Positions 30,776-44,204 of a stretch of DNA of 64,000 nt are shown here, one piece after another. Made by a program: the position numbers and the translations under genes. How positions within the stretch are numbered: the stretch's first letter is position 1; every line of letters starts with the position of its first letter. The notes beneath the pieces are model-generated. The model searched no databases and was not told the DNA's origin. It saw nothing but the letters and a program-made list of their open reading frames with translations. This stretch comes from Micromonospora terminaliae (GTDB lineage: Bacteria > Actinomycetota > Actinomycetes > Mycobacteriales > Micromonosporaceae), in assembly GCF_009671205.1 (NCBI RefSeq), contig NZ_CP045309.1:558001-622000 (forward strand), in the 5' to 3' direction.

Positions 30776-30783
30776 CCGCCGGC

Positions 30784-31010
30784 GACAACGCCCGGCGGCA
30801 ACGACCTGCGACGACGCCCGGCGGCAACGACTGGCGACGACCGGCGGGGACGACGTGCGGCGACGACCTGCGACGCCCGGCGGCAACGACTGGCGACGAC
30901 CGGCGGGGACGACGTGCGGCGACGACCGGCGGCGACGACCTGCGACGCCCGGCGGCAACGACTGGTGACGACCGGCGGGGACGACGTGCCACGACGACCG
31001 GCGCGACCGC
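30784..31010. repeat. Degenerate tandem repeat tract
   Basis: Units of about 59-72 bases are built from shorter blocks: CCCGGCGGCAACGACTGG (starting at 30817, 30876 and 30948), GACGACCGGCGGGGACGACG and TGCGGCGACGACC. It fills the space between two convergent genes. The blocks are similar to each other (GACGACsGGCGG), so the tract probably grew by slippage. Confidence 0.85.
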
Positions 31011-31016
31011 CGGCTG

Positions 31017-31988
31017 TCAGTGCACCACCGGCAGGTCGAGCACGTCGTCGACCGGGCGGCGCGGGGTGGTGCGGCCGGGCTGGCCGTACCCGATCCGCAT
31101 CACCATCTGCGGCGTGCCGAACCGGCCCAGCGACAGCCGCAGCGCCTCCCGGGCCCCGGGCACCTCGATCGGCTGGGAGAGCATCGACACGGCCAGGCCG
31201 GCGTCGGTGGCGGTGAGCAGCACCCGTTGCAGGGCCTGCCCGGCGACGATCTGGTCGGTGGCGGTGTTGCCGGTCGAGCCGAGGACGGCGACCAGCGGTT
31301 CGGGTTCGAAGTCGCGGCCGGGGGCGCGGTTGCGGCCGCCGAAGCCGCGCTGTGGCAGCAGGTCCTGCGGTTCGCTCTGCGGGCCGCCCGCGGCGGTCGG
31401 CACGCCGTCGGGGGAGGGCTCGGAGCGGATCCACCGCTTCCGTTCGGTGACGTAGGCGGGGTCGCGCTCCAGTACCCGGTGTGCGCTGCGGGCGATCTCG
31501 GCGAAGGCGTTGACCGCCGTGGTGCCGATGACGAGTTCCAGCCAGCACTGCTCGGCCCGGGCGGCCTCGCCGAGGCGCCAGCGCGCGTCGGCGGGGACCG
31601 GGTCGGGCCAGAACGGCGCCCGGTTGCTGAACCGGCGGGAGATTGCGCCGTGCAGGCTCTGCTCGGCGGGGGTGGGCCGGCGCGGCACGTCGGGGACGAG
31701 CCGGGCCACCACGTCCGGGTCGCCGGGGTACGGGCGGAGCCGGACCGTGGCCGGCGTGCCCGCCACGGCGAGGGCCAGCCGCAGGTTGCACAGGGCCGCC
31801 CCGCAGGCGATCCGGGCGCCCCAGCCGCTCGGGTCGGTGGCCGGCAGCCGGCGCCGCGGGTCGACGGCGATTTCGATCCCGCCGTCGACGAGGCGGAACC
31901 GCCAGGGCTGGGTGTTGTGCAGCGACGGCGCGCGCACCGCGTCCGCGGCGGCTTCCCGCAGCTGGTCGGCCGTGTAGCCCGTGGTCAT
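31017..31988 (-). CDS. Acg-family nitroreductase-like protein
   Basis: 323 residues from the ATG at 31988, with GGAGGGAGCAACGCC ahead. The opening DAVRAPSLHNTQPWRFRL and the later QIVAGQALQRVLLTATDAGLAVSMLSQPIEV are signatures of the Acg family. Its mycobacterial member Rv2032 belongs to the DosR regulon and binds flavin without clear nitroreductase activity. A DosR-type box, GGGACCTCCGGCCC, lies about 80 bases upstream and is read toward this gene. A role under hypoxia or nitric oxide stress is inferred from family and context. It is divergent from dosR. Confidence 0.87.
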   Translation of the reverse strand: MTTGYTADQLREAAADAVRAPSLHNTQPWRFRLVDGGIEIAVDPRRRLPATDPSGWGARIACGAALCNLRLALAVAGTPATVRLRPYPGDPDVVARLVPDVPRRPTPAEQSLHGAISRRFSNRAPFWPDPVPADARWRLGEAARAEQCWLELVIGTTAVNAFAEIARSAHRVLERDPAYVTERKRWIRSEPSPDGVPTAAGGPQSEPQDLLPQRGFGGRNRAPGRDFEPEPLVAVLGSTGNTATDQIVAGQALQRVLLTATDAGLAVSMLSQPIEVPGAREALRLSLGRFGTPQMVMRIGYGQPGRTTPRRPVDDVLDLPVVH

Positions 31989-32064
31989 GGCGTTGCTCCC
32001 TCCGTGCGGGCCGACCTGCCGGCCGGCCCGTTTCCACCGTCCGTCACGGGGTGGGGCGGCGAGC

Positions 32065-32080
32065 AGGGCCGGAGGTCCCC
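32065..32080 (-). promoter_or_regulatory. DosR-type box upstream of the Acg-like gene
   Basis: On the minus strand the site reads GGGGACCTCCGGCCCT. It shares the core GGGACCTnCGGCCC with the sites at 32122 and 41525. Confidence 0.7.
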
Positions 32081-32121
32081 ACCTGGGCGGGTCCGTCTGC
32101 CCGCCGCGGCCGCGTGCCGGT

Positions 32122-32137
32122 CGGGACCTTCGGCCCG
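32122..32137 (+). promoter_or_regulatory. DosR-type box upstream of dosR
   Basis: CGGGACCTTCGGCCCG lies 35 bases before the dosR start, consistent with autoregulation. It resembles the mycobacterial DosR consensus, a 20-base palindrome with GGGAC and GTCCC-like halves. Confidence 0.75.
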
Positions 32138-32172
32138 TGCGGGACCCGCGGGCGGGAGGGTAGAAAGGACGG

Positions 32173-32811
32173 ATGATCCGCGTGTTCCTGCTCGACGACC
32201 ACGAGGTCGTCCGTCGTGGCCTTGCCGACCTGCTCCAGAGCAGCGGCGACATCGAGGTGGTCGGCGAGTCCGGCTCCGCGCAGGAGGCGGCCCGCCGTAT
32301 CCCGGCCCTCCGCCCCGACGTGGCGATCCTCGACGCCCGGCTGCCCGACGGCAACGGCATCGACGTGTGCCGGGACGTCCGCGCCGTGGACTCGTCGATC
32401 AAGGGACTGATCCTCACCTCGTACGAGGACGACGAGGCGCTCTTCGCGGCGATCATGGCGGGCGCCGCCGGTTACGTGCTCAAGCAGATCCGCGGCACCG
32501 ACCTCGTGGACGCGGTCCGGCGGGTGGCGGCCGGGCAGTCCCTGCTCGACCCGGCGATCACCACCCGGGTGCTGGAGCGGATCCGCAGCGGCGTCGAGCA
32601 GCCGCGCGAGCTGAAGTCGCTCACCGAGCAGGAGCGGCGGATCCTGGAATACGTGGCCGAGGGGCTCACCAACCGGGAGATCGCGGGCAGGATGTTCCTC
32701 GCCGAGAAGACGGTGAAGAACTACGTGTCCAGCGTGCTGGCCAAGCTCGGCCTCGAGCGTCGTACGCAGGCCGCCGTGCTGGCCACCCGGCTGCTCGGCA
32801 AGAGCCACTGA
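32173..32811 (+). CDS. dosR: DosR/DevR-type response regulator
   Basis: 212 residues, NarL family, and very close in pattern to Mycobacterium DosR. It opens IRVFLLDDHEVVRRGLADLL, with D54 as phosphorylation site (DVAILDARLPDGNGID), T82, and K104 (YVLKQIRG), all at the DosR numbering. The effector HTH reads LTEQERRILEYVAEGLTNREIAGRMFLAEKTVKNYVSSVLAKLGLERRTQAAV, nearly the DosR recognition region. It should switch on the dormancy genes around it under low oxygen or nitric oxide. It is convergent with the DevS-like kinase, with 19 bases between stops. Confidence 0.93.
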   Translation: MIRVFLLDDHEVVRRGLADLLQSSGDIEVVGESGSAQEAARRIPALRPDVAILDARLPDGNGIDVCRDVRAVDSSIKGLILTSYEDDEALFAAIMAGAAGYVLKQIRGTDLVDAVRRVAAGQSLLDPAITTRVLERIRSGVEQPRELKSLTEQERRILEYVAEGLTNREIAGRMFLAEKTVKNYVSSVLAKLGLERRTQAAVLATRLLGKSH

Positions 32812-32830
32812 GCCGGGGCGCCCCGCCCGC

Positions 32831-34564
<1,734 letters not shown>

Positions 34565-34596
34565 CTATCGCCTGGTGGCCGCCGGCCGGAGATCCG

Positions 34597-35604
34597 TCAG
34601 GAGAGCTGGCCGCGTACCGCCGACGTGTCGACGGTCTGCGCGACGTCCAGCCGCGGGGTGTGCGGGGGGCCGGCGTGCGTCGGGTCGGCCAGGCCGAGGC
34701 GCATCGAGATGTACGGGAAGCCGAGGCCGGACAGCATCTGCCGGAGCGTCTGTCGGGTGCTGTCGACCTCCACCACGCCGGAGAGCGGCACCAGGGACAC
34801 GCCGTGCCGGGTGGCGGTGAGCCAGGCGGCGGAGAGCGCCTCGCCGGCGCGCAGCCAGCTGTCCGGCTCGTCCTCGGTGCCCCAGAGGATCCCGTAGACG
34901 GCGGCCCGGTCGTGCCCCTCACCGACAGGCAGTGTGCCGGGGCCGAAGTCGCGGGCCGGGACGGTGGTCTCGGGGGCCCGCTCCGGCACCACCTCCGGGG
35001 GCAGCCCGGTGCCGGCCCGGGCCCGGGTGGTCCAGTACGCCAGCTCCTCCTGCAGGTCCGGGCTGCCCTTCTCGACGGCCGCCGCCTGCTGGGCCGCGGC
35101 GGCCAGCTCGATCTTCTGGTCGTCGTTCAGCACCTGCAGGTTGACGCCCTCCCGGGTGGCCGCCCGGTCGATCTCGCCCAGCACGGCGGTCGGGATCGGC
35201 TCCTCGCTGACCGGCCGGCGGTCGGTGTGTCGGACCTGCATGCACTGGACCGTGCGCATGGCGTCCGGGTCTGCCCCGGTGGGCTTGAATCCGGTCAGCC
35301 GGGCGAGGAGGTCGGGCTGGCCGGGGTCGGGCACCCGCTCCACCACCGGCGTCCAGCCCTCGGCGGCCAGCGCCATCCGGGCGTGGTGCAGCGCGACGCC
35401 GCAGCTCAGCACCAGCAGCCGGCCCTCCGGGTCCAGGACGCTGAGGTGCCGCTCCCGGACCACGCGCAGCTCCAGCGCGTCGGGCAGCACGGTCCAGTGC
35501 CACGGCTGGGTGTTGTGCACCGAGGGGGCGTGGCCGGCCATTCCGGCGGCCTCCGCGAGCGCGGTGGTCAGCGGGCGGTCCGTAGCCGGCGTCTCGTGGC
35601 TCAT
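34597..35604 (-). CDS. Second Acg-family nitroreductase-like protein
   Basis: 335 residues from the ATG at 35604. MAGHAPSVHNTQPWHWTVL and the C-terminal SWLRAGEALSAAWLTATRHGVSLVPLSGVVEV show the Acg family. It is clearly diverged from the copy at 31017, which it shares mainly at the N-terminal and flavin-contact regions. It heads a likely unit with the devS gene. It is divergent from the P-type ATPase across 191 bases that contain a weaker DosR-type box at 35725. DosR regulons in mycobacteria also contain several Acg paralogues, so the duplication fits the context. Confidence 0.87.
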   Translation of the reverse strand: MSHETPATDRPLTTALAEAAGMAGHAPSVHNTQPWHWTVLPDALELRVVRERHLSVLDPEGRLLVLSCGVALHHARMALAAEGWTPVVERVPDPGQPDLLARLTGFKPTGADPDAMRTVQCMQVRHTDRRPVSEEPIPTAVLGEIDRAATREGVNLQVLNDDQKIELAAAAQQAAAVEKGSPDLQEELAYWTTRARAGTGLPPEVVPERAPETTVPARDFGPGTLPVGEGHDRAAVYGILWGTEDEPDSWLRAGEALSAAWLTATRHGVSLVPLSGVVEVDSTRQTLRQMLSGLGFPYISMRLGLADPTHAGPPHTPRLDVAQTVDTSAVRGQLS

Positions 35605-35723
35605 CGTCACGACCTTCCTGTCTCTCCCCATCGTGCCCCACGCCCGGGGCGTCCGGGTGGGCTTGCCCGCTCCATCCTCGGCCATGTCCGCGATGGCCGC
35701 ACGCGTCCGACGTCCCGCACGCA

Positions 35724-35739
35724 CGGGCCCTTCGACCCG
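35724..35739. promoter_or_regulatory. Weaker DosR-type box between divergent genes
   Basis: The core GGGCCCTTCGACCC (35725-35738) matches GGGACCTnCGGCCC at 11 of 13 defined positions. It is 57 bases from the ATPase start and about 120 bases from the second Acg-like start. Confidence 0.5.
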
Positions 35740-35795
35740 TCGGATTACCCACGTTTGCCCTACCCGGGCCGCCGGGGCGCTGAGACGATCCGCAT

Positions 35796-38141
35796 GTGGG
35801 GGCGGAACCGCGGGAGTGCGTACCGGAGCGGCCGGTGCGGCGACGCCCGCTGGAGCGGCGGGAGTGGGCGCCGCTGATCCTGCTCACCCTGGCCGTGCTG
35901 GCCGGCGCCGGGCTGTGGATCGCCGGGCGGCGTGGCACCGCCGACCTGGTCTGGGCGGCGGTGACCGTGGTGGCGCTCGGGCCGGCGGTCTGGACGACCC
36001 TGCGGCAGCTCTGGCGGCGGCAGTTCGGGGTGGACGTGATCGCGGTGCTGGCCCTGGCCGGCGCGCTGCTGGTCGGCGAGTACCTGGCCGGCGCGGTGAT
36101 CGCCGTGATGGTCGCCACGGGCCGGGCCCTGGAGGAGTACGCCCAGCGCCGGGCCAGCCGCGACCTGCGCGCGCTGCTGGAACGGGCGCCCCGGCAGGCC
36201 CGGCGGCGCGCCCCGGGCGGCCGGATCGAGGTGGTGCCGCTGGACCGCGTGGCGGCCGGCGACCGGCTCGTGGTCGGCCCCGGCGACGTCGTGCCGGTGG
36301 ACGGGACCGTCGAGGAGCCCGCCACGCTGGACGAGTCGGTGGTCACCGGCGAGTCGCAGCTGGTCACCCGCGCCGCCGGCGAGCAGGTGGCCAGCGGCGT
36401 GGTCAACGCCGGCGCCGGCTTCGGGCTGCGGGCCGGGAAGAGCGCCGCGGAGAGCACGTACGCGGGGATCGTCCGGCTGGCCGAGGAGGCCACCGCGCGC
36501 AAGGCCCCGATGGTCCGGCTCGCCGACCGGTACGCGGCGGCGTTCGTGCCGTTCACCCTCGTGCTGGCCGGGCTGGCCTGGCTGCTCTCCGGCGAGTTCC
36601 TGCGGGCCGTGGCGGTGCTCGTGGTGGCCACCCCGTGCCCGCTGCTGCTGGCCACCCCGATCGCCATCGTGTCCGGGCTGTCCCGGGTGGCCCGCCGGGG
36701 CGTGCTGGTCCGCGACGGCGGGTCCCTGGAGCTGCTCGGCCGGGCACGTACCCTCCTGCTGGACAAGACCGGCACGCTCACGGCGGGCCGCCCGCGCGCC
36801 GCCGAGACGGTGGTCGCCCCCGGCGGCGACCGGGACGAGCTGCTGCGGCTGGCCGCTTCCGTCGAACAGCTCTCCCCGCACGTGCTGGCGGCCGCCCTGG
36901 TCCGGCAGGCCCGCGAGCAGGGGCTGCCGCTGACCGAGCCGACCGGGGTCACCGAGGAGCCGGGACGCGGGGTGACCGGCCGGGTCGACGGCCGCTTGGT
37001 CCGGGTGGGCCAGCTCGCCGGCGAACCGCCCGAGTGGGCGCACCGGGTCCGCGAGCGGGCCGAGCTGGCCGGACGCTCCACCGTCTGGGTCAGCGACGAG
37101 CACGGCCCGCTCGGCGCGATCCTCCTCGAGGACCCGGTCCGGCCCGACGCCCGGCGTACCGTCCGGCGGCTGCGGGAGGCCGGGCTGGACCGGCTCGTCA
37201 TGGTGACCGGCGACCGGCCGCGCACCGCCCAGCAGGTCGCGCGGACCGTCGAGGTGGACGACGTGATCGCGCAGTGCTCGCCCGCGGAGAAGGTCGCCCG
37301 GGTGAAGGCGGAGTCCGGCCGGGCGGTGACCGTCATGGTCGGCGACGGGGTGAACGACGCCCCGGCGCTGGCCGCGGCGCACGTCGGGGTGGCCATGGGC
37401 GCCACCGGGGCGACCGCCTCCGCCGACGTGGCCGACGCGGTGCTCACCGTGGACCGGCTGGACCGGCTCGCCGACGCCGTCGAGATCGCCCGGTACGCCC
37501 GCCGCATCGCGGTGCAGAGCGCCTCCGTCGGGATGGGACTGGCCGTGGTGGCCATGGTGGTGGCCGCCGCCGGTGGGCTGCCCCCGGTCGCCGGCGCCTT
37601 CCTCCAGGAGGGCATCGACGTGCTGGTGATCGTCAACGCGCTGCGCGCCCTCCGCGGCGGCCTGCGCCGCCGGGACGTCCCCCCGCACACGCGTGAACTC
37701 CTCGACCGGTACGCGGGCGAGCACGGCGGTGTCCGCGACGTCCTGGCCCGGCTACGGGACACCGCCGACCTGGTGGCCACCCGCCCCGACGCGCCGGAGT
37801 GCGTGCCGGCGCTGCGGGCGGTGCACCGCCGGCTGGTCGACGACGTGCTGCCGCACGAGGCGGCCGAGGAACGGCAGCTCTACCCGGCCCTGGCCGCCCC
37901 GCTGGGCGGCGAGGAGGCCACCTCCACGATGAGCCGTGCGCACGTGGAGATCAGCCGGCTGGTGGACCGGATCGGCGGTCACCTGGCGGCCCAGCCCGAC
38001 GGCCGGCTGCGCCCCGACGAGGTGCCGGACCTGCTGGCCGCGCTCTACGGCCTGGACGCCGTCCTCCGGCTGCACCTGGCGCAGGAGGAGGAGGACTACT
38101 TCTCGCTCAGCCCCGCCGACGACCACCCCGACACCCGCTGA
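35796..38141 (+). CDS. P1B-5 metal-transport ATPase with C-terminal hemerythrin domain
   Basis: 781 residues from the GTG at 35796. P-type ATPase landmarks are the actuator TGES (184-187), the metal-site helix motif TPCP (279-282), the phosphorylated D323 in DKTGT, MVTGDRPRTA and GDGVNDAPAL. There is no N-terminal CxxC metal domain. After the last helices, residues about 665-775 form a hemerythrin-like HHE domain (VPALRAVHRRLVDDVLPHEAAEERQLYPAL, MSRAHVEISRLVDRI, LRLHLAQEEEDYFSL). TPCP together with a hemerythrin tail defines the P1B-5 subgroup (Acidothermus Hr-ATPase, Sinorhizobium Nia), linked to Ni/Fe export. The di-iron tail may sense oxygen or iron, which fits a place beside DosR. Confidence 0.92.
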   Translation: MGAEPRECVPERPVRRRPLERREWAPLILLTLAVLAGAGLWIAGRRGTADLVWAAVTVVALGPAVWTTLRQLWRRQFGVDVIAVLALAGALLVGEYLAGAVIAVMVATGRALEEYAQRRASRDLRALLERAPRQARRRAPGGRIEVVPLDRVAAGDRLVVGPGDVVPVDGTVEEPATLDESVVTGESQLVTRAAGEQVASGVVNAGAGFGLRAGKSAAESTYAGIVRLAEEATARKAPMVRLADRYAAAFVPFTLVLAGLAWLLSGEFLRAVAVLVVATPCPLLLATPIAIVSGLSRVARRGVLVRDGGSLELLGRARTLLLDKTGTLTAGRPRAAETVVAPGGDRDELLRLAASVEQLSPHVLAAALVRQAREQGLPLTEPTGVTEEPGRGVTGRVDGRLVRVGQLAGEPPEWAHRVRERAELAGRSTVWVSDEHGPLGAILLEDPVRPDARRTVRRLREAGLDRLVMVTGDRPRTAQQVARTVEVDDVIAQCSPAEKVARVKAESGRAVTVMVGDGVNDAPALAAAHVGVAMGATGATASADVADAVLTVDRLDRLADAVEIARYARRIAVQSASVGMGLAVVAMVVAAAGGLPPVAGAFLQEGIDVLVIVNALRALRGGLRRRDVPPHTRELLDRYAGEHGGVRDVLARLRDTADLVATRPDAPECVPALRAVHRRLVDDVLPHEAAEERQLYPALAAPLGGEEATSTMSRAHVEISRLVDRIGGHLAAQPDGRLRPDEVPDLLAALYGLDAVLRLHLAQEEEDYFSLSPADDHPDTR

Positions 38142-38159
38142 CCCGTCGCCACCTGGGGG

Positions 38160-39026
38160 TCAGCGTTCGCGGACCACGGCGACCGGGCACTGGGCGTGCT
38201 GGATGAGCTGCTGGCTGACCGAGCCGAGCAGCATCCCGCGCAGTCCGCCCCGGCCCCGGCTGCCCACGACCACGAGCTGGGCCGACCGGCTCTCCTCGAC
38301 CAGCAGCGCGGAGGGGCTGCCCGGGTTCGCCACCACCTCGACCGGCACGTCCGGGAAGGTCTCCCGCCAGGGGGCCAGGTCCGCCTCGGCCGCGGCCCGC
38401 TCGGTGGCGCCGGCCTCCTCCGGGTCGAAGCCCGGCGGCACCCGCCCCTCGCGAGGCGGCTCCCAGACCCGCAGCGCCCGTACCGGCACGTCCCGCTGCG
38501 CCGCCCGCTCGATGGCGAAGCCCAGCGCCTCCACCGAGGACGGGGAGCCGTCCGCGCCGACGACCACCGGCCCGGACGTGGCGGGCCGGCCGTCCCGGAC
38601 CACGATCACCGGGCAGTGCGCGTGGGCCGTGACGCTGACGGCGGTGGAGCCGGTGAGCAGCCCGGCGAAGCCGCCGTGGCCGCGGCTGCCCAGCACCAGC
38701 ATGCCCGCGTCGGCGGAGCGCTCCTGGAGGACCAGCGCGGGCGGGCCGTCGAAGACCTCGCCGTGCACGGTCAGCCCCGGCCGGTCCGCGGCGGCGTCCG
38801 CGGCCGTGCGGCGGACCAGCTCCTCGACCTGCCGCCGGGCGGTCTCGTCGGGCCAGACGCCGGGGGCCACGCCGGGACCGATCCAGCCGGCCACCGTCAG
38901 CCACTCGAAGACGTACGCCAGGCGGACCGGCCGGCCCGAGCGGCCCGCCTCGTCCAGCGCCCAGTTCAGGGCCACCGTCGCGTCGGCGGAGCCGTCGTAG
39001 CCGACCAGGATCTCCTCGCCGTTCAT
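38160..39026 (-). CDS. Tandem-domain universal stress protein
   Basis: 288 residues with two complete UspA domains. Each has the ATP-binding pattern G-2x-G-9x-G-S/T ([21 protein letters not shown] at about 110-130 and [21 protein letters not shown] near the end). ATP-binding tandem USPs such as mycobacterial Rv1996 and Rv2623 are DosR targets that slow growth in dormancy. The start overlaps the phosphoketolase stop by 4 bases (ATGA), so translation is coupled. It is convergent with the ATPase gene, with 18 bases between. Confidence 0.9.
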
Positions 39027-41425
39027 GCCCCGCTCCGCACGCTCGGGTCGGTCTCGCGGATCCAGCGCCACTCGGCGACCCGGGGGTCGTCCTCGCCGTG
39101 CTGCCGGGTGTAGTCGCGGCAGGCCTGCCGGAGGTCCACCATCTCCTGGCGCAGGTGGGCGGCGCGTGAGCGCAGCCCGGGCAGCCGGTCGATGACGTCG
39201 ATGACCAGGTGGAAGCGGTCGAGGTCGTTGAGCATCACCATGTCGAACGGCGTGGTGGTGGTGCCCTCCTCCTTGTAGCCGCGCACGTGGAGGTTGTCGT
39301 GGTTGGTCCGGCGGTAGGTGAGCCGGTGGATCAGCCACGGGTAGCCGTGGTAGGCGAAGATGACCGGCTTGTCGCGGGTGAAGATGGTGTCGAACTCGCT
39401 GTCCGGCAGGCCGTGCGGGTGCTCCGACGGCGGTTGCAGGCGCATGAGGTCGACCACGTTGACCAGCCGTACCTTCAGGTCGGGCAGGTGCTGGCGGAGC
39501 AGGCCGGCCGCCGCGAGTGTCTCCAGGGTCGGCACGTCGCCGGCGCAGGCGAGCACGACGTCCGGCTCGCTGCCGTCGTCGGTGCTGGCCCAGTCCCAGA
39601 TGCCCAGGCCGCGGCGGGTGTGCTGGATGGCCTCCTCCATGGTCAGCCAGTTGGGCGCCGGCTGCTTCCCGGCCACCACCACGTTGATGTAGTGCCGGCT
39701 GCGCAGGCAGTGGTCCATGGTGGAGAGCAGGGTGTTGCCGTCCGGCGGCAGGTAGACCCGCACGACCTCGGCCTTCTTGTTCACCACGTGGTCGATGAAG
39801 CCCGGGTCCTGATGCGAGAAGCCGTTGTGGTCCTGCCGCCAGACGTGGCTGGAGAGCAGGTAGTTCAGCGACGCCACCGGCGCCCGCCACGGGATCTGCC
39901 GGGTCACCTTGAGCCACTTGGCGTGCTGGTTGACCATCGAGTCGACGATGTGGATGAACGCCTCGTAGCTGGTGAAGAGGCCGTGCCGGCCGGTCAGCAG
40001 GTAGCCCTCCAGCCAGCCCTGACACAGGTGCTCGGAGAGCACCTCCATGACCCGGCCGTCGGGGGAGAGGTGGTCGTCGCCCGGCAACCGGCTGCCGACG
40101 AACGCCCGGTCGGTGACCTCGAAGACGGCGCCGAGCCGGTTCGAGGCGACCTCGTCCGGGCCGAACAGGCGGAAGGTCTCCGGGTTACGGGTGATCACGT
40201 CCCGGACCCACGGGCCCAGCGCGCCGGTGGCGCCGGCCATCGGGGTGCCCGGCTCCTTGACGTCGACCGCGTAGTCGCGGAAGTCCGGCAGCTCCAGGTC
40301 GCGCAGCAGCCGCCCGCCGTTGGCCACCGGGTTGGCGCTCATCCGCCGGTCGCCCGTGGGGGGCAGGTCGGCCAGGTCGGGGACCGGCGCGCCGGTGGCG
40401 TCGAACAGCTCCTCCGGCCGGTAGCTGCGCAGCCAGCGCTCCAGCTCGGCCAGGTGCGCGGGGTTGTCGCGGACCTCGTCGATGGGCACCTGGTGGGCGC
40501 GGAACGTGCCCTCGACCTGCTTGCCGTCGACGTCCGCCGGCCCGGTCCAGCCCTTCGGCGTACGGAGGACGATCATCGGCCAGCGGGGGCGCTCGACCTC
40601 GCCACCGGTGCGGGCCCGGCGCTGGATCTCGGCGATCTCGTCGACCACCCGGTCCAGGGTGGCGGCGAGGAGCTGGTGCACCCGGGCCGGGTCGTCGCCC
40701 TCGACGACGTACGGCTGGTAGCCGAAGCCGCGCATCTGGTCGAGCAGGTCCTCGGCGGGGATCCGGTCGAGCACCGTCGGATTGGCGATCTTGTAACCGT
40801 TGAGGTGCAGGATCGGCAGCACCGCACCGTCCCGGGCCGGGTTGAGGAAGACGTTGGACAGCCAGCTCCCGGCCAGCGGCCCGGTCTCCGCCTCACCGTC
40901 ACCGATCACACAGGCGACCAGGAGGTCCGGGTTGTCGAACGCGGCGCCGTACGCGTGGCTCAGCGCGTACCCCAGCTCGCCGCCCTCGTGGATCGAGCCC
41001 GGCACCTCCGGCGCCACGTGGCTGGGGATGCCGCCGGGGAAGGAGAACTGGCGGAACAGCCGCTGCATGCCGGTCTCGTCGCGGGCGATGTGGTGGTAGA
41101 GCTCGCTGTACGTGCCCTCCAGCCACGTGTTGGCCACCAGGGCGGGGCCGCCGTGGCCCGGGCCGGTGACGAAGATGGCGGACAGGTCCCGGTCGACGAT
41201 GACCCGGTTGAGGTGCGTGTAGAGGAGGTTGAGGCCGGGGCTGGTGCCCCAGTGCCCGAGCAGCCGGGGCTTGATGTGCTCGGGCTTCAGCGGCTCACGC
41301 AGCAGCGGGTTGTCGAGCAGGTAGATCTGCCCGACGGTGAGGTAGTTCGCCGCCCGCCAGTAGGCGTCGAGCCGGCGCAGCTCGTCCTCGGTCAGTGGGC
41401 TGTGCAGGTCCAGCGCGGTGTCCAT
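39023..41425 (-). CDS. xfp: Xylulose-5-phosphate/fructose-6-phosphate phosphoketolase
   Basis: 800 residues, the full length of the family. This thiamine-diphosphate enzyme splits xylulose-5-P or fructose-6-P to acetyl phosphate plus a sugar phosphate. Signatures are [29 protein letters not shown], the ThDP-binding [20 protein letters not shown], and [12 protein letters not shown] with the following SYEAF. Acetyl phosphate gives ATP without oxygen, which suits an anaerobic survival programme. A DosR-type box, CGGGACCTACGGCCCT on the minus strand, lies 100 bases upstream. It shares its transcript with the USP gene downstream. No acetate kinase gene is in the window. Confidence 0.95.
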
Positions 41426-41524
41426 GCTGCGTTAGCCTCTCGCGGCTCGGGGTCTTCTGCCACCCGGGAGCGGATCGGCCGCCCCCGGCACGGTAAGCCT
41501 CGTCCCTCGGCCGGCGGGTCGATC

Positions 41525-41540
41525 AGGGCCGTAGGTCCCG
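41525..41540 (-). promoter_or_regulatory. DosR-type box upstream of phosphoketolase
   Basis: On the minus strand it reads CGGGACCTACGGCCCT, equal to the dosR box except at the central base and the last base. It lies in the 128-base spacer after the second USP gene. Confidence 0.7.
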
Positions 41541-41553
41541 GGCTGGGCGGGCG

Positions 41554-42390
41554 TCATGACCCGTCCTCGTCGTCGGGGTCGAGTCCACGGACGACGATCA
41601 CCGGGGCCGGCGAGTGGTAGAGCAGCGTCTGGCTGACCGCGCCCAGCATGCCCCGCAGCGGCTCGTCACCGCGCGCCCCGACCAGCGTCACCTGTGCCGA
41701 GCGGGACTGTTCCAGCAGGACGGCGCCGGGGTCGCCGCGGATCGTGTGGCACTCGACGGCCACCGCGGGATGCCGGGCGCCGTACCGGGAGACGGCCTCG
41801 TCGAGCAGTCCGTCGTCGCCGCCGTCGGAGTGGTGGCTGGGCTCCGTCACCCGGACGGCGAGCAGCCGGGTGCCGCGGCTCTCGGCGCAGTCGAAGGCGT
41901 ACGCCAGGGTGGCGCGCGAACTCTCCGACCCGTCGAAGCCGACCAGCAGTGGTCCCTGCGGCGGCGGCTCGATCCGGGCGACCAGCACCGGGCAGCCGGC
42001 CCGGGCGGCGAGCTGCACGGCCGGAACGTCGGCCGGTACGCAGGACGCGCAGCCGGCCATGCCGCCGTCACCCACCGCCAGCAGGAACGCCGAGTCGGAG
42101 GCCCGGATCAGCCCCTCGATCGGGTCGCCCTCGACGATCTCGTCGGTGACCGGCAGTCCCGGCGCGGCCTCGGCGGCCACCCGCCCGGCCTTCTCCAGCA
42201 GCTCCTCGGCGGTCGCGCGCGGGCCGCTCACCGAGAACGACTCCAGCGCCGCCGCCCAGTTGAAGGCGTGCAGCAGGTGCAGCGGCCGGTCGTGCGCGGC
42301 GGCCTCCCCGGCGGCCGTCCGGACCACCTCGAGGTCCTCCGCCGAGCCGCCCACGCCGACCACCACCGCGCCGTGGGTGGGTGCGGGCAT
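41554..42390 (-). CDS. Tandem-domain universal stress protein (degenerate N-terminal half)
   Basis: 278 residues. The C-terminal UspA domain keeps VGARGDEPLRGMLGAVSQTLLYHSPAPVIVV, close to the ATP-binding loop. The N-terminal domain (about 1-140) has LLAVGDGGMAGCASCVPADVPAVQLAARAGCPVLV, with the glycine motif replaced by a Cys-containing stretch (CASC), so it probably does not bind ATP in the usual way. It lies upstream of phosphoketolase on the same strand, but the DosR-type box between them suggests separate promoters. No clear box was found before this gene. Confidence 0.85.
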   Translation of the reverse strand: MPAPTHGAVVVGVGGSAEDLEVVRTAAGEAAAHDRPLHLLHAFNWAAALESFSVSGPRATAEELLEKAGRVAAEAAPGLPVTDEIVEGDPIEGLIRASDSAFLLAVGDGGMAGCASCVPADVPAVQLAARAGCPVLVARIEPPPQGPLLVGFDGSESSRATLAYAFDCAESRGTRLLAVRVTEPSHHSDGGDDGLLDEAVSRYGARHPAVAVECHTIRGDPGAVLLEQSRSAQVTLVGARGDEPLRGMLGAVSQTLLYHSPAPVIVVRGLDPDDEDGS

Positions 42391-42485
42391 CCCGGCTCAC
42401 CTCCCGACCGCGCTGTCCTCACCCACGGTAGTCGTGCGGGTGCCCGCCGGGACCCGGTCGGCGGAACTGGCGCCGACGGGAGGGA

Positions 42486-43286
42486 TCAGCGGGGGTTGGG
42501 CAGGGCCGGGTGGACGCGGACGACCACGGCGGTGGCGTTGTCCTCGCCGCCCTCGGCCAGGCTCGCGGCGAGCAGGGCCTGCGCGGTCCGGGCCGGGTCG
42601 CGGCGCGCCGCCAGCAGGTCGCGCAGCCGGTGGTAGCCGAGCTGGTCGCTCACCCCGTCGGTGCAGAGCAGCCAGGTGTCCCCGCTGCGCAGCGGCACGG
42701 CCAGCAGGTCCGGCTCGGGCTTGTCCGGGTGGCCGACGTAGCGCAGCAGCTGGTAGCGGGCCCGGGCGGCCTCCGGCGAGTCGGGCGGCCACCAGCCGTG
42801 CAGCAGGCCGAGCCAGGCCATCGTGTGGTCGACGGTCACCAGTTCGAGCAGCCCCTCGCGCAGCCGGTACGCCCGGGAGTCGCCGAGCTGGACGAGCCAG
42901 CCCTGCCCGCCGTCGGGCTCGGCGACCAGGGCGGTGAGGGTGCAGCCGGTCAGCCCGGCCAGTCCCGCACCGGCCCGGCGTACCCGCAGCTGGGTCTCGG
43001 CCGTGGCGGCGCGCAGCCGGGCGGCGTCGACGGCCGGCCAGCCGGCGCGGACCTGCGCCACGAAGGTGGTCAGGGCGGCGGTGCCGGCGACCCGGCTGCC
43101 CTCGCCGTCGCCCATGCCGTCGGCGACCGCGGCCAGCGGCAGGTCCGGGTCGACGTGCAGGACGTCGAAGTTCTCCGCGTACCGGTGCCCGACCACGCTG
43201 CCCCCGGCGATCTCCAGGGTGAGCCGGCCGACGGTCAGCCGGCGGGTGGCCTGGACCGGCTGGTCCAGCGGGCGGCGGCGGAACAC
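42486..43286 (-). CDS. PP2C-type Ser/Thr protein phosphatase
   Basis: 266 residues, the size of a free-standing catalytic domain. Metal-binding motifs are VADGMGDGEGS near 55-65, VQLGDSRAYRLREG, LLCTDGVSDQL and GEDNATAVVVRV. The usual N-terminal RxxNED element is altered to VGHRYAENFDVL, where Arg and Asn-Phe-Asp partly keep the pattern. It presumably reverses Ser/Thr kinase action. Partner kinases (PknB type) are not in the window. Its link to the stress block is by position only; I see no DosR-type box before it, and its promoter region is shared with the twin operator of the next gene. Confidence 0.88.
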   Translation of the reverse strand: MFRRRPLDQPVQATRRLTVGRLTLEIAGGSVVGHRYAENFDVLHVDPDLPLAAVADGMGDGEGSRVAGTAALTTFVAQVRAGWPAVDAARLRAATAETQLRVRRAGAGLAGLTGCTLTALVAEPDGGQGWLVQLGDSRAYRLREGLLELVTVDHTMAWLGLLHGWWPPDSPEAARARYQLLRYVGHPDKPEPDLLAVPLRSGDTWLLCTDGVSDQLGYHRLRDLLAARRDPARTAQALLAASLAEGGEDNATAVVVRVHPALPNPR

Positions 43287-43392: not shown

Positions 43393-43629
43393 ATGAGTCA
43401 GGCGACGGAACTCGCGGCGGCGGCCGGCAGCACCGACCCGAAGGTCGGGCTGCGGGCCGTGCTCGCCCTGCGCCGGCTGCTCGAACGGCTGGAGGTGGTC
43501 CAGGTGGACAACGCCCGACGGCAGGGCTGGTCCTGGCAGGAGATCGCCGACGCCCTCGAGGTCAGCCGGCAGGCGGTCCACAAGAAGCACGCCGGGCGAC
43601 CGGCGGTCCGCGGAAGCTGGGAGGCGTGA
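43393..43629 (+). CDS. Small helix-turn-helix protein
   Basis: 78 residues. The C-terminal part, NARRQGWSWQEIADALEVSRQAVHKKHAGR, is a helix-turn-helix. The N-terminal part (LRAVLALRRLLERLEVVQV) is an amphipathic helix suited to dimer formation. Proteins of this type sit in front of a Clp N-domain gene in many actinomycetes. There is no ribosome binding site, in line with a leaderless start. The twin GTCAAC-N4-GTTGAC operators lie over its own promoter, so autorepression is the simplest reading. Its stop shares bases with the next start. Confidence 0.85.
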   Translation: MSQATELAAAAGSTDPKVGLRAVLALRRLLERLEVVQVDNARRQGWSWQEIADALEVSRQAVHKKHAGRPAVRGSWEA

Positions 43630-44204
43630 TGTTCGAACGGTTCACCGACCGGGCCCGCGCGGTGGTGCACCACGCGCTCGACGAGGCGCGCACCGAGGGC
43701 CGGCGCCCGGTCGGCACCGAGCACCTGCTGCTCGGCGTGCTCGCCGACGGCGACAATCTGGCCGTCCGGGTGCTGTCGGCCGGCGGCATCCGGGCCGAGG
43801 ACCTGCGCGCCGCCGTGGCCCGGCACACCGCGCACGGTGTCGACGGCCTCGGCGCGGCCGACGCGGCGGCGCTGCGCGAGATCGGCATCGACCTCGCCGC
43901 GATCGTCGCGCGGATCGAGGAGTCCTTCGGCCCGGACGCGCTGCGCGAGGCGGCGCCGGCGCCCCGCAGGTGGTGGGGCCGCCGCCCCGGCGACGGCCGG
44001 TTCTCACCCCGCGCCAAGAAGGTGCTGGAGCTGTCCCTGCGGGAGGCGCTGCGGCTGCGCCACCGCCACATCGGCACCGAGCACATCCTGCTCGGGCTGC
44101 TGCGGGAGGGCAACGGGCTGGCCGCGCTGGTGCTCACCGAGGCCGGTGCGGACCTCGACGACCTGCGCCACCGGGTCGAGGCGGCGCTGCGCACGGCGGC
44201 GTGA
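43629..44204 (+). CDS. Double Clp N-domain protein
   Basis: 191 residues from the ATG at 43629, sharing TGATG with the upstream stop; a GTG at 43626 is in the same frame. Two Clp-N repeats are seen: FERFTDRARAVVHHALDEARTEGRRPVGTEHLLLGVL (1-40) and FSPRAKKVLELSLREALRLRHRHIGTEHILLGLLREGNGLAALVL (about 115-165). They are joined by a linker with RRWWGRRPG. There are no AAA+ domains, so it is a free-standing substrate- or adaptor-type module like ClpC N-domains. It may bind misfolded or phospho-arginine proteins, or compete for ClpC partners. It is co-expressed with the HTH protein. Confidence 0.88.
   Translation: MFERFTDRARAVVHHALDEARTEGRRPVGTEHLLLGVLADGDNLAVRVLSAGGIRAEDLRAAVARHTAHGVDGLGAADAAALREIGIDLAAIVARIEESFGPDALREAAPAPRRWWGRRPGDGRFSPRAKKVLELSLREALRLRHRHIGTEHILLGLLREGNGLAALVLTEAGADLDDLRHRVEAALRTAA

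Follow-up and report, generated by a model that had tools for sequence, protein, structure and literature searches.

Does the genus Micromonospora possess a dormancy regulon of the DosR/DevS type, and if so, how far does it extend? The question is raised by a locus in the genome of Micromonospora terminaliae (6.74 Mb), lying in a window (the whole stretch of DNA that was analysed) of 64,000 nucleotides, C1:558001-622000, where C1 stands for contig NZ_CP045309.1. A preliminary description, made from the letters of the sequence, had placed in this window a compact island comprising genes for a response regulator (dosR), a sensor kinase (devS), two Acg-like oxidoreductases (acg1 and acg2), a phosphoketolase (xfp), universal stress proteins (USPs), and a metal-transporting ATPase with a hemerythrin domain, linked by four matching DNA boxes. 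The present analysis indicates that the locus very probably belongs to a functional two-component regulon of the DosR/DevS type by which Micromonospora responds to low oxygen, nitric oxide (NO), or both. The shared boxes before dosR, acg1, acg2-devS, and xfp-usp2 stand, whereas the novelty, the metal pump, and the confinement to an island are not supported in the form proposed.

Boxes in the Island and Their Conservation

A pattern scan of the whole genome found three exact copies of GGGACCTNCGGCCC, all within the island, before acg1, dosR, and xfp (Table 1); the chance that three random sites share 9.5 kb is approximately 6e-6. The observation of a shared box is thereby confirmed, although each site had been given one base wider on either side. 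Conservation was followed in relatives, namely the best 80 of 153 loci from one scan of named genomes. Among the matches listed, the closest named relatives by kinase gene are M. chaiyaphumensis (98%) and M. fulviviridis (95%). Micromonospora and Salinispora loci repeatedly show the gene order usp1-xfp-usp2-(ATPase)-acg2-devS-dosR-acg1; Plantactinospora and Actinoplanes-like loci differ, and several loci end at contig edges.

From the relatives, 47 unique boxes of dosR and acg1 were combined into a matrix of 14 columns. Sites scoring at least 10 bits in the 300 bp upstream of a gene were counted and compared with those found by 100 column-permuted matrices on the same DNA. In the window, the matrix ranks the sites at 32123 (21.8), 32066 (19.8), 41526 (18.3), and 35725 (12.0) first to fourth, followed by a site at 38583 (10.1) within the usp2 coding sequence. 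Boxes preceded dosR in 71 of 72 cases (permuted mean 0.73, maximum 9), and 63 of the 65 acg1 orthologues likewise had one (mean 0.69, maximum 6). The boxes of acg2 and xfp, both outside the training data, were present in 43 of 67 relatives and in 48 of 59 island relatives, respectively, the latter mostly as GGGACCAACGGCCC (mean 0.83, maximum 10). At acg2, 17 boxes are placed as in the window (112-122 bp from the gene, same orientation), 22 lie at 78-99 bp in the opposite orientation, and 4 at other places, with 24 relatives having none at this score; at stricter identity the count is 42 of 66 (mean 1.12, maximum 9).

The Regulator, Its Promoter, and the Sensor Kinase

The gene identities given in the preliminary description were right, as judged from Pfam, solved-structure, and NCBIfam matches. 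The best solved relative of DosR is M. tuberculosis DevR (3c3w; 248 bits, E 4.4e-73), followed by VraR at 154.5 bits. DosR carries D8, D9, D54, T82, and K104, and the last three, pointed out earlier, are kept in all 74 aligned relatives.

In all 63 upstream regions (62 usable relatives and the window), 35-36 bp separate the box of dosR from the ATG, this spacing staying fixed while the dosR-acg1 spacer ranges from about 180 to 470 bp. This spacer was usable in 62 of the 80 relatives: L036, L048, and L057 were skipped for odd spacing, and the remaining ones were dropped by identity or orientation. On the 3′ side of the box, GGTAGAAA is conserved in the 63 regions, each column reaching at least 85% whichever of the two spacings applies. 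The box probably serves the autoregulation of dosR. A leaderless dosR transcript fits the sequence because TAGAAA ends six bases 5′ of the ATG; this hexamer is likely its -10 element, and the box centre would then lie at about -43.5.

It could be argued that the boxes are real but used mainly by another regulator, such as the Crp-like protein encoded elsewhere in the genome or another NarL-type protein, with DosR merely one target. A box also adjoins the Crp-like gene, and some genes bound by the DosR-type regulator OsdR of Streptomyces coelicolor were reported to lack the consensus (PMC5069765). This explanation is nevertheless quite improbable: the dosR box is the most conserved one, OsdR recognises the same element as DevR, with support from electrophoretic mobility shift assays (PMC5069765), and the segment LAEKTVKNYVS of the DNA-binding helix does not differ between DosR and DevR.

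With regard to the kinase, its first GAF domain (GAF-A) has DosT as the nearest solved match (2vzw, 182 bits), followed by DevS entries at 169-173 bits. H148, Y170, and H392 are present in 80 of 80 relatives and G86 in 79 of 79. H148 falls at what we take to be the position of the heme-ligand His of DevS and DosT; its place and conservation agree with the earlier proposal, while heme binding itself remains predicted. Position 86 is presumably Gly in DosT and Glu in DevS, with Gly accompanying a stable oxy form, and Gly86 would make the kinase a DosT-like gas sensor. The genome contains 19 matches to the kinase; apart from the kinase itself, they start no earlier than residue 315, so none of these 18 covers GAF-A. 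The adjacency of acg2 and devS recurs in relatives, and the two genes probably form one operon.

The Fourth Box and the Hemerythrin ATPase

The site at 35725, described earlier as the fourth box, is ordinary by consensus counting: the window holds 13 two-mismatch matches to GGGACCTNCGGCCC, this one included, so counting alone gives it no support, as 12 other places match equally. On the other hand, it ranks fourth with the matrix and is partly kept in relatives. It most likely belongs to acg2-devS, since the acg2 box persists where the neighbouring ATPase gene is missing. Among the 58 islands that are unbroken from usp2 to acg2, 12 do not have that gene, including the island of the closest named relative (L013), and an acg2 box of at least 10 bits occurs in 11 of the 12 islands without it versus 26 of the 46 with it (Fisher p 0.04, one uncorrected test).

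As a cassette that may or may not be inserted between usp2 and acg2, the ATPase gene was rejected as an essential member of the island. Metal export, previously regarded as joined to the system, is reduced to the presumed function of a dispensable neighbour; control of the ATPase by DosR is possible but would be secondary. In one relative (L032), a 965-bp gap at the ATPase place may hold another gene.

The protein scores 515 bits on TIGR01525 (cut-off 346) and carries TPCP at residue 279 and QEGID at residue 604, candidates for the TPCP and QEXXD signature motifs of P1B-5 ATPases. A P-type ATPase with a C-terminal hemerythrin domain has already been described as P1B-5 (PMC9388753); the A. cellulolyticus protein and S. 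meliloti Nia share with the present one the heavy-metal P-type core and the C-terminal hemerythrin domain, but here the gene is a dispensable neighbour of a DosR box.

Boxes beyond the Island

The pattern GGGACNWNYGRCCC has 19 matches in the genome, 3 of them in the island. Four distal boxes precede genes expected in such a regulon, encoding a flavohemoglobin (hmp), a tandem USP, a CBS-BON protein, and CydA of cytochrome bd; the divergent partners are an Rrf2-family gene at hmp, a Crp-like gene at the tandem USP gene, and a glyoxalase gene at cydA. Eight of the 16 distal matches lie outside called genes versus 18% expected (p 0.004 with a simple gene caller; p 0.017 with one match fewer, L094 being unclear). 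In a family test (61 family genomes per gene, own included, 30 loci per gene, at least 10 bits), CBS-BON was boxed in 14 of 30 loci (permuted mean 0.51, maximum 3) and the distal USP gene in 12 of 27 (mean 0.46, maximum 4). Between the glyoxalase gene and cydA (L098, C1:2508581-2511594), the box reads GGGACCAATGACCC and is the same in all three Micromonospora of the family sample, own included.

The preliminary description had tied its proposal to an enrichment of the motif before USP, Acg, and nitroreductase genes across the genome. The partial check made here does not refute the regulon, since the distal USP pair, CBS-BON, hmp, and cydA carry boxes. For the same genes, the compact island is not the whole regulon.

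Two further strong boxes, which may or may not belong to the regulon, were seen in the genome, GGGACTTTCGACCC near genes for a 150-aa protein and a STAS protein (L102, C1:3993789) and GGGACCTTCGACCC before a gene for a 210-aa protein without a family (L108, C1:6612971). Neither the site at C1:55332 (GGGTCCTTCGGCCC, at ECF sigma factor / CopCD genes) nor that at C1:5557446, which precedes gyrB by about 480 bp, was in the end counted as a regulon member.

Weight of the Box Evidence

A number of observations weigh against a DosR regulon at this locus. First, the motif is rarer in the genome than its reversed form: 47 matches were obtained with the reversed control of GGGACNWNYGRCCC, and matches genome-wide therefore need case-by-case judgement; half of the distal ones (8 of 16) lie within called genes. 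Second, the dosR and acg1 box counts are not independent, because the matrix was trained on both. Third, some boxes are unevenly kept. In 6 of 6 Salinispora loci the box of xfp has degenerated to a score below 8, and in the family test xfp was boxed in 10 of 30 loci, own included (permuted maximum 3), cydA in 8 of 30 (mean 0.56, maximum 5), and the distal USP gene in 2 of the 3 Micromonospora. Finally, at a score of at least 8, a box of its own was found before devS in 4 of 79 relatives, before usp2 in 0 of 59, and before usp1 in 0 of 49. The genes devS (in most relatives) and usp2 are boxless as expected if the operons hold, since they would be read from acg2 and xfp; xfp and usp2 probably share an operon. 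Because usp1 has no box upstream, the far edge of the island is less clear than had been stated.

Taken to the extreme, such points would mean that the motif agreement reflects chance or the composition of a G+C-rich genome and that the neighbourhood is an ordinary stress cluster. In line with this, the mismatch-tolerant motif is no commoner than in shuffled sequence: GGGACCTNCGGCCC with up to three mismatches occurs 112 times in the window versus 128 expected, and its one-mismatch matches in the genome number 61 versus a total of 135 for the reversed control pattern. Mismatch counting and the general pattern GGGACNNNNGNCCC (128 matches in the genome, 199 for the reversed control) were set aside as uninformative. 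The exact form alone is informative, since the tolerant counts in the window equal chance, and the weight consequently rests on the exact copies and on conservation. Here a chance origin is scarcely credible: all three exact copies fall within the island, box positions are kept in dozens of species, and permuted matrices gave about 1 match on average and at most 10, versus 30 to 71 observed for dosR, acg1, acg2, xfp, and hmp. A DosR/DevS-type regulon thus remains the preferred explanation.

The hmp Promoter and the Nature of the Signal

In the genome of M. terminaliae, hmp is divergent from a gene for an Rrf2 (NsrR-like) protein (L093, C1:839871-842884), with one box at C1:841371 and a second copy, GGGACGGCCGGCCC, at C1:841418. 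In the genus, hmp was found in 37 of 61 genomes at E <= 1e-60 (38 matches), with 24 lacking it, and the best 30 of the 38 loci, own included, are all boxed (permuted mean 0.51, maximum 3; coding control 0). Across the family, the box was present in 6 of 6 loci at 65% identity or above and in 2 of 17 otherwise (23 usable of 30; permuted maximum 2). One relative (L125) carries GGGACTTTAGTCCC, which we take to be the core consensus of M. tuberculosis.

The hmp box is immediately followed by a 21-23 bp palindromic element that reads roughly AANAGGAATCNNNGATTCCTGTT. Its arms pair at a mean of 6.97 of 9 positions versus 5.48 in shuffles (largest shuffle mean 6.07), where the selection required a CTGTT-like element, present in 30 of 30 loci. 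The repeat is weak in the own genome (6 of 9 arm positions), and the lowest pairing (5 of 9) was seen in L281 and L299, at whose hmp loci the Rrf2 gene was not found. The Rrf2 protein beside hmp has an Rrf2 Pfam match and Cys residues at 90, 95, and 101, and scores 84.7 bits on the NsrR equivalog model, below the cut-off of 182. The hmp promoter thus seems to combine a DosR box with an NsrR-like operator. In S. coelicolor, the reported targets of NsrR at hmpA1, hmpA2, and nsrR consist of two 11-bp inverted repeats one base apart with conserved AA and TT ends (PMC4432287). The Micromonospora arrangement resembles them in having, next to hmp, a repeat of 21-23 bp whose ends are AA/TT-like and a divergent Rrf2 gene with three Cys, and differs in that the repeat directly follows a DosR-type box, so that both inputs would share a promoter.

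These findings bear on what is sensed. The input of the DosR regulon might be NO or redox state, with hypoxia not the main signal, a reading that overlaps with the "and/or" of the explanation preferred here and that we hold to be possible but doubtful. It draws on the box before hmp in 30 of 30 Micromonospora loci examined, beside the NsrR-like palindrome, and on S. coelicolor DevSR, which is described as NO-dependent (PMC4766573). The cydA box in 3 of 3 Micromonospora of the family sample, by contrast, points to oxygen as well. So does the DosT-like Gly86, if its association with a stable oxy form applies; the two signals are not exclusive.

Comparison with Known Systems

A DosR-type system outside mycobacteria, which had been put forward as new, was already published for S. 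coelicolor, where OsdK/OsdR (DevS/DevR, SCO0203/SCO0204) constitute a kinase and regulator of the type found here (PMC5069765). The OsdR consensus is AGGGCCGATCGGCCCT, with sites AGGGACCTTCGGCCCC and CGGGACCTTCGGCCCT, and the predicted sites include 14-mers identical to GGGACCTTCGGCCC, clearly at SCO0216 and SCO5979 and, as the table reads, at SCO0167c (PMC5069765). The two regulons have in common a nitroreductase-family gene, USPs, a USP/Crp-like pair (SCO0167/SCO0168 among the predicted OsdR targets), and the regulator itself as targets (PMC5069765). In contrast, no nitrate reductase, nitrate transporter, or pyruvate phosphate dikinase is among the ten annotated genes here, the regulator and kinase genes are convergent, and a phosphoketolase-usp pair is present, whereas the OsdR paper makes no mention of phosphoketolase (PMC5069765). 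It was also reported that in S. coelicolor NO acts on Nar via DevSR and on Fhb via NsrR (PMC4766573), while here hmp carries a DosR-type box.

The locus is like the DosR regulon of M. tuberculosis in its regulator, at 248 bits to DevR, and in its GAF-A, nearest to DosT, the solved structures compared by sequence being 3c3w, 2vzw, and 2w3d. Acg/Rv3131-family genes, USPs, a CBS-domain gene, and a P-type ATPase (CtpF in M. tuberculosis) are also shared. M. tuberculosis has two such kinases, DevS and DosT, whereas this genome has one with a DosT-like GAF-A. Other differences are the boxes before phosphoketolase, hmp, and cydA and the lack of HspX and narK2X among the ten annotated island genes. 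The distinctive features of the Micromonospora version are a box before the only phosphoketolase gene of the genome, the convergence of dosR and devS, and the presence of both elements at hmp. Judged by titles and abstract openings, no description of this version was found in the open-licence papers searched, a result that is not proof of absence.

Features of the Island

The features are listed in Table 1. On NF047509 (cut-off 199), acg1 scores 315.8 bits and acg2 273 bits; xfp scores 1476 bits on NF003619 (cut-off 962) and is the single phosphoketolase match in the genome, where one acetate kinase gene is located elsewhere.

Table 1. Genes, boxes, and promoter element of the DosR-type island, with positions counted from the first letter of the window.
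Feature	Position	Strand	Description
acg1	31017..31988	-	Acg/Rv3131-family FMN-binding oxidoreductase, nitroreductase-like, 323 aa
DosR-type box GGGACCTCCGGCCC	32066..32079	-	77 bp before acg1; exact match
DosR-type box GGGACCTTCGGCCC	32123..32136	+	36 bp before dosR ATG; exact match
TAGAAA	32161..32166	+	candidate -10 element of dosR
dosR	32173..32811	+	NarL/FixJ-type response regulator, 212 aa; Response_reg and GerE
devS (devS/dosT-like kinase)	32831..34555	-	574 aa; GAF-GAF-HisKA_3-HATPase; convergent with dosR
acg2	34597..35604	-	second Acg-family oxidoreductase; 41 bp before devS, same strand
degenerate box GGGCCCTTCGACCC	35725-35738	+	between acg2-devS and ATPase gene; 2 mismatches
ATPase gene	35796..38141	+	P1B-type heavy-metal ATPase with C-terminal hemerythrin domain; TIGR01525, Pfam Hemerythrin 637-770
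usp2	38160..39026	-	tandem USP, Pfam Usp x2; overlaps xfp by 4 bp
xfp	39023..41425	-	phosphoketolase, 800 aa; XFP_N, XFP, XFP_C full length
DosR-type box GGGACCTACGGCCC	41526..41539	-	100 bp before xfp; exact match
usp1	41554..42390	-	tandem USP, Pfam Usp x2; upstream neighbour
PP2C gene (putative member)	42486-43286

Two observations concern the borders. A G+C-rich tandem-repeat array at 30779-31014 (periods 13 to 72, e.g., 72 bp x 2.4 copies at 91%) separates acg1, at its 3′ end, from a gene weakly matching an NAD-dependent reductase model (39.6 bits, cut-off 580). Just past the island, 43626-44204 encodes a 192-aa protein with two Clp_N stretches, in which no ATPase domain was found.

Proposed Mechanism and Significance

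Briefly, low oxygen or NO would be perceived at the heme of the GAF-domain kinase, a predicted DosT-like sensor, and DosR would be phosphorylated at D54. We infer that phosphorylated DosR (DosR~P) binds boxes of the form GGGAC-N-T-N-Y-G-R-CCC and activates its own, probably leaderless, promoter as well as acg1, acg2-devS, and xfp-usp2. Its predicted distal targets are hmp with the nsrR-like gene, CBS-BON, the USP/Crp-like pair, and, for some members of the family, cydA. What the sequence itself establishes are the gene identities, the key residues, and the boxes with their conservation, whereas heme binding, phosphotransfer, DNA binding, the direction of regulation, and the hypoxia/NO signal are inferred. 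Phosphoketolase would supply acetyl phosphate, which could yield ATP through acetate kinase; Hmp would remove NO, cytochrome bd, with its high affinity, would sustain respiration at low oxygen, and the USP, CBS, and Acg proteins may accompany a slow state.

A more speculative extension, which we regard as unlikely, is that acetyl phosphate made by phosphoketolase phosphorylates DosR directly, forming a loop that would hold dormancy even once the heme kinase is off, with acetate kinase using this pool of acetyl phosphate to make ATP, and that the hmp promoter is shared with an Fe-S NO repressor. Acetyl phosphate served as the phosphodonor of OsdR in vitro (PMC5069765). If the extension is true, DosR, xfp, acetyl phosphate, and DosR~P would constitute a metabolic positive feedback.

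Since the only phosphoketolase sits under a DosR box, the question whether acetyl phosphate matters to such regulators in cells becomes directly testable in a non-pathogen, and hmp would offer for dissection a promoter under two sensors, the heme kinase and an Fe-S repressor. Micromonospora are soil and marine actinomycetes that include antibiotic producers. To this genus the DosR dormancy logic would be extended with testable promoters, the prediction being that phosphoketolase metabolism, bd oxidase, and NO detoxification are linked within one DosR regulon.

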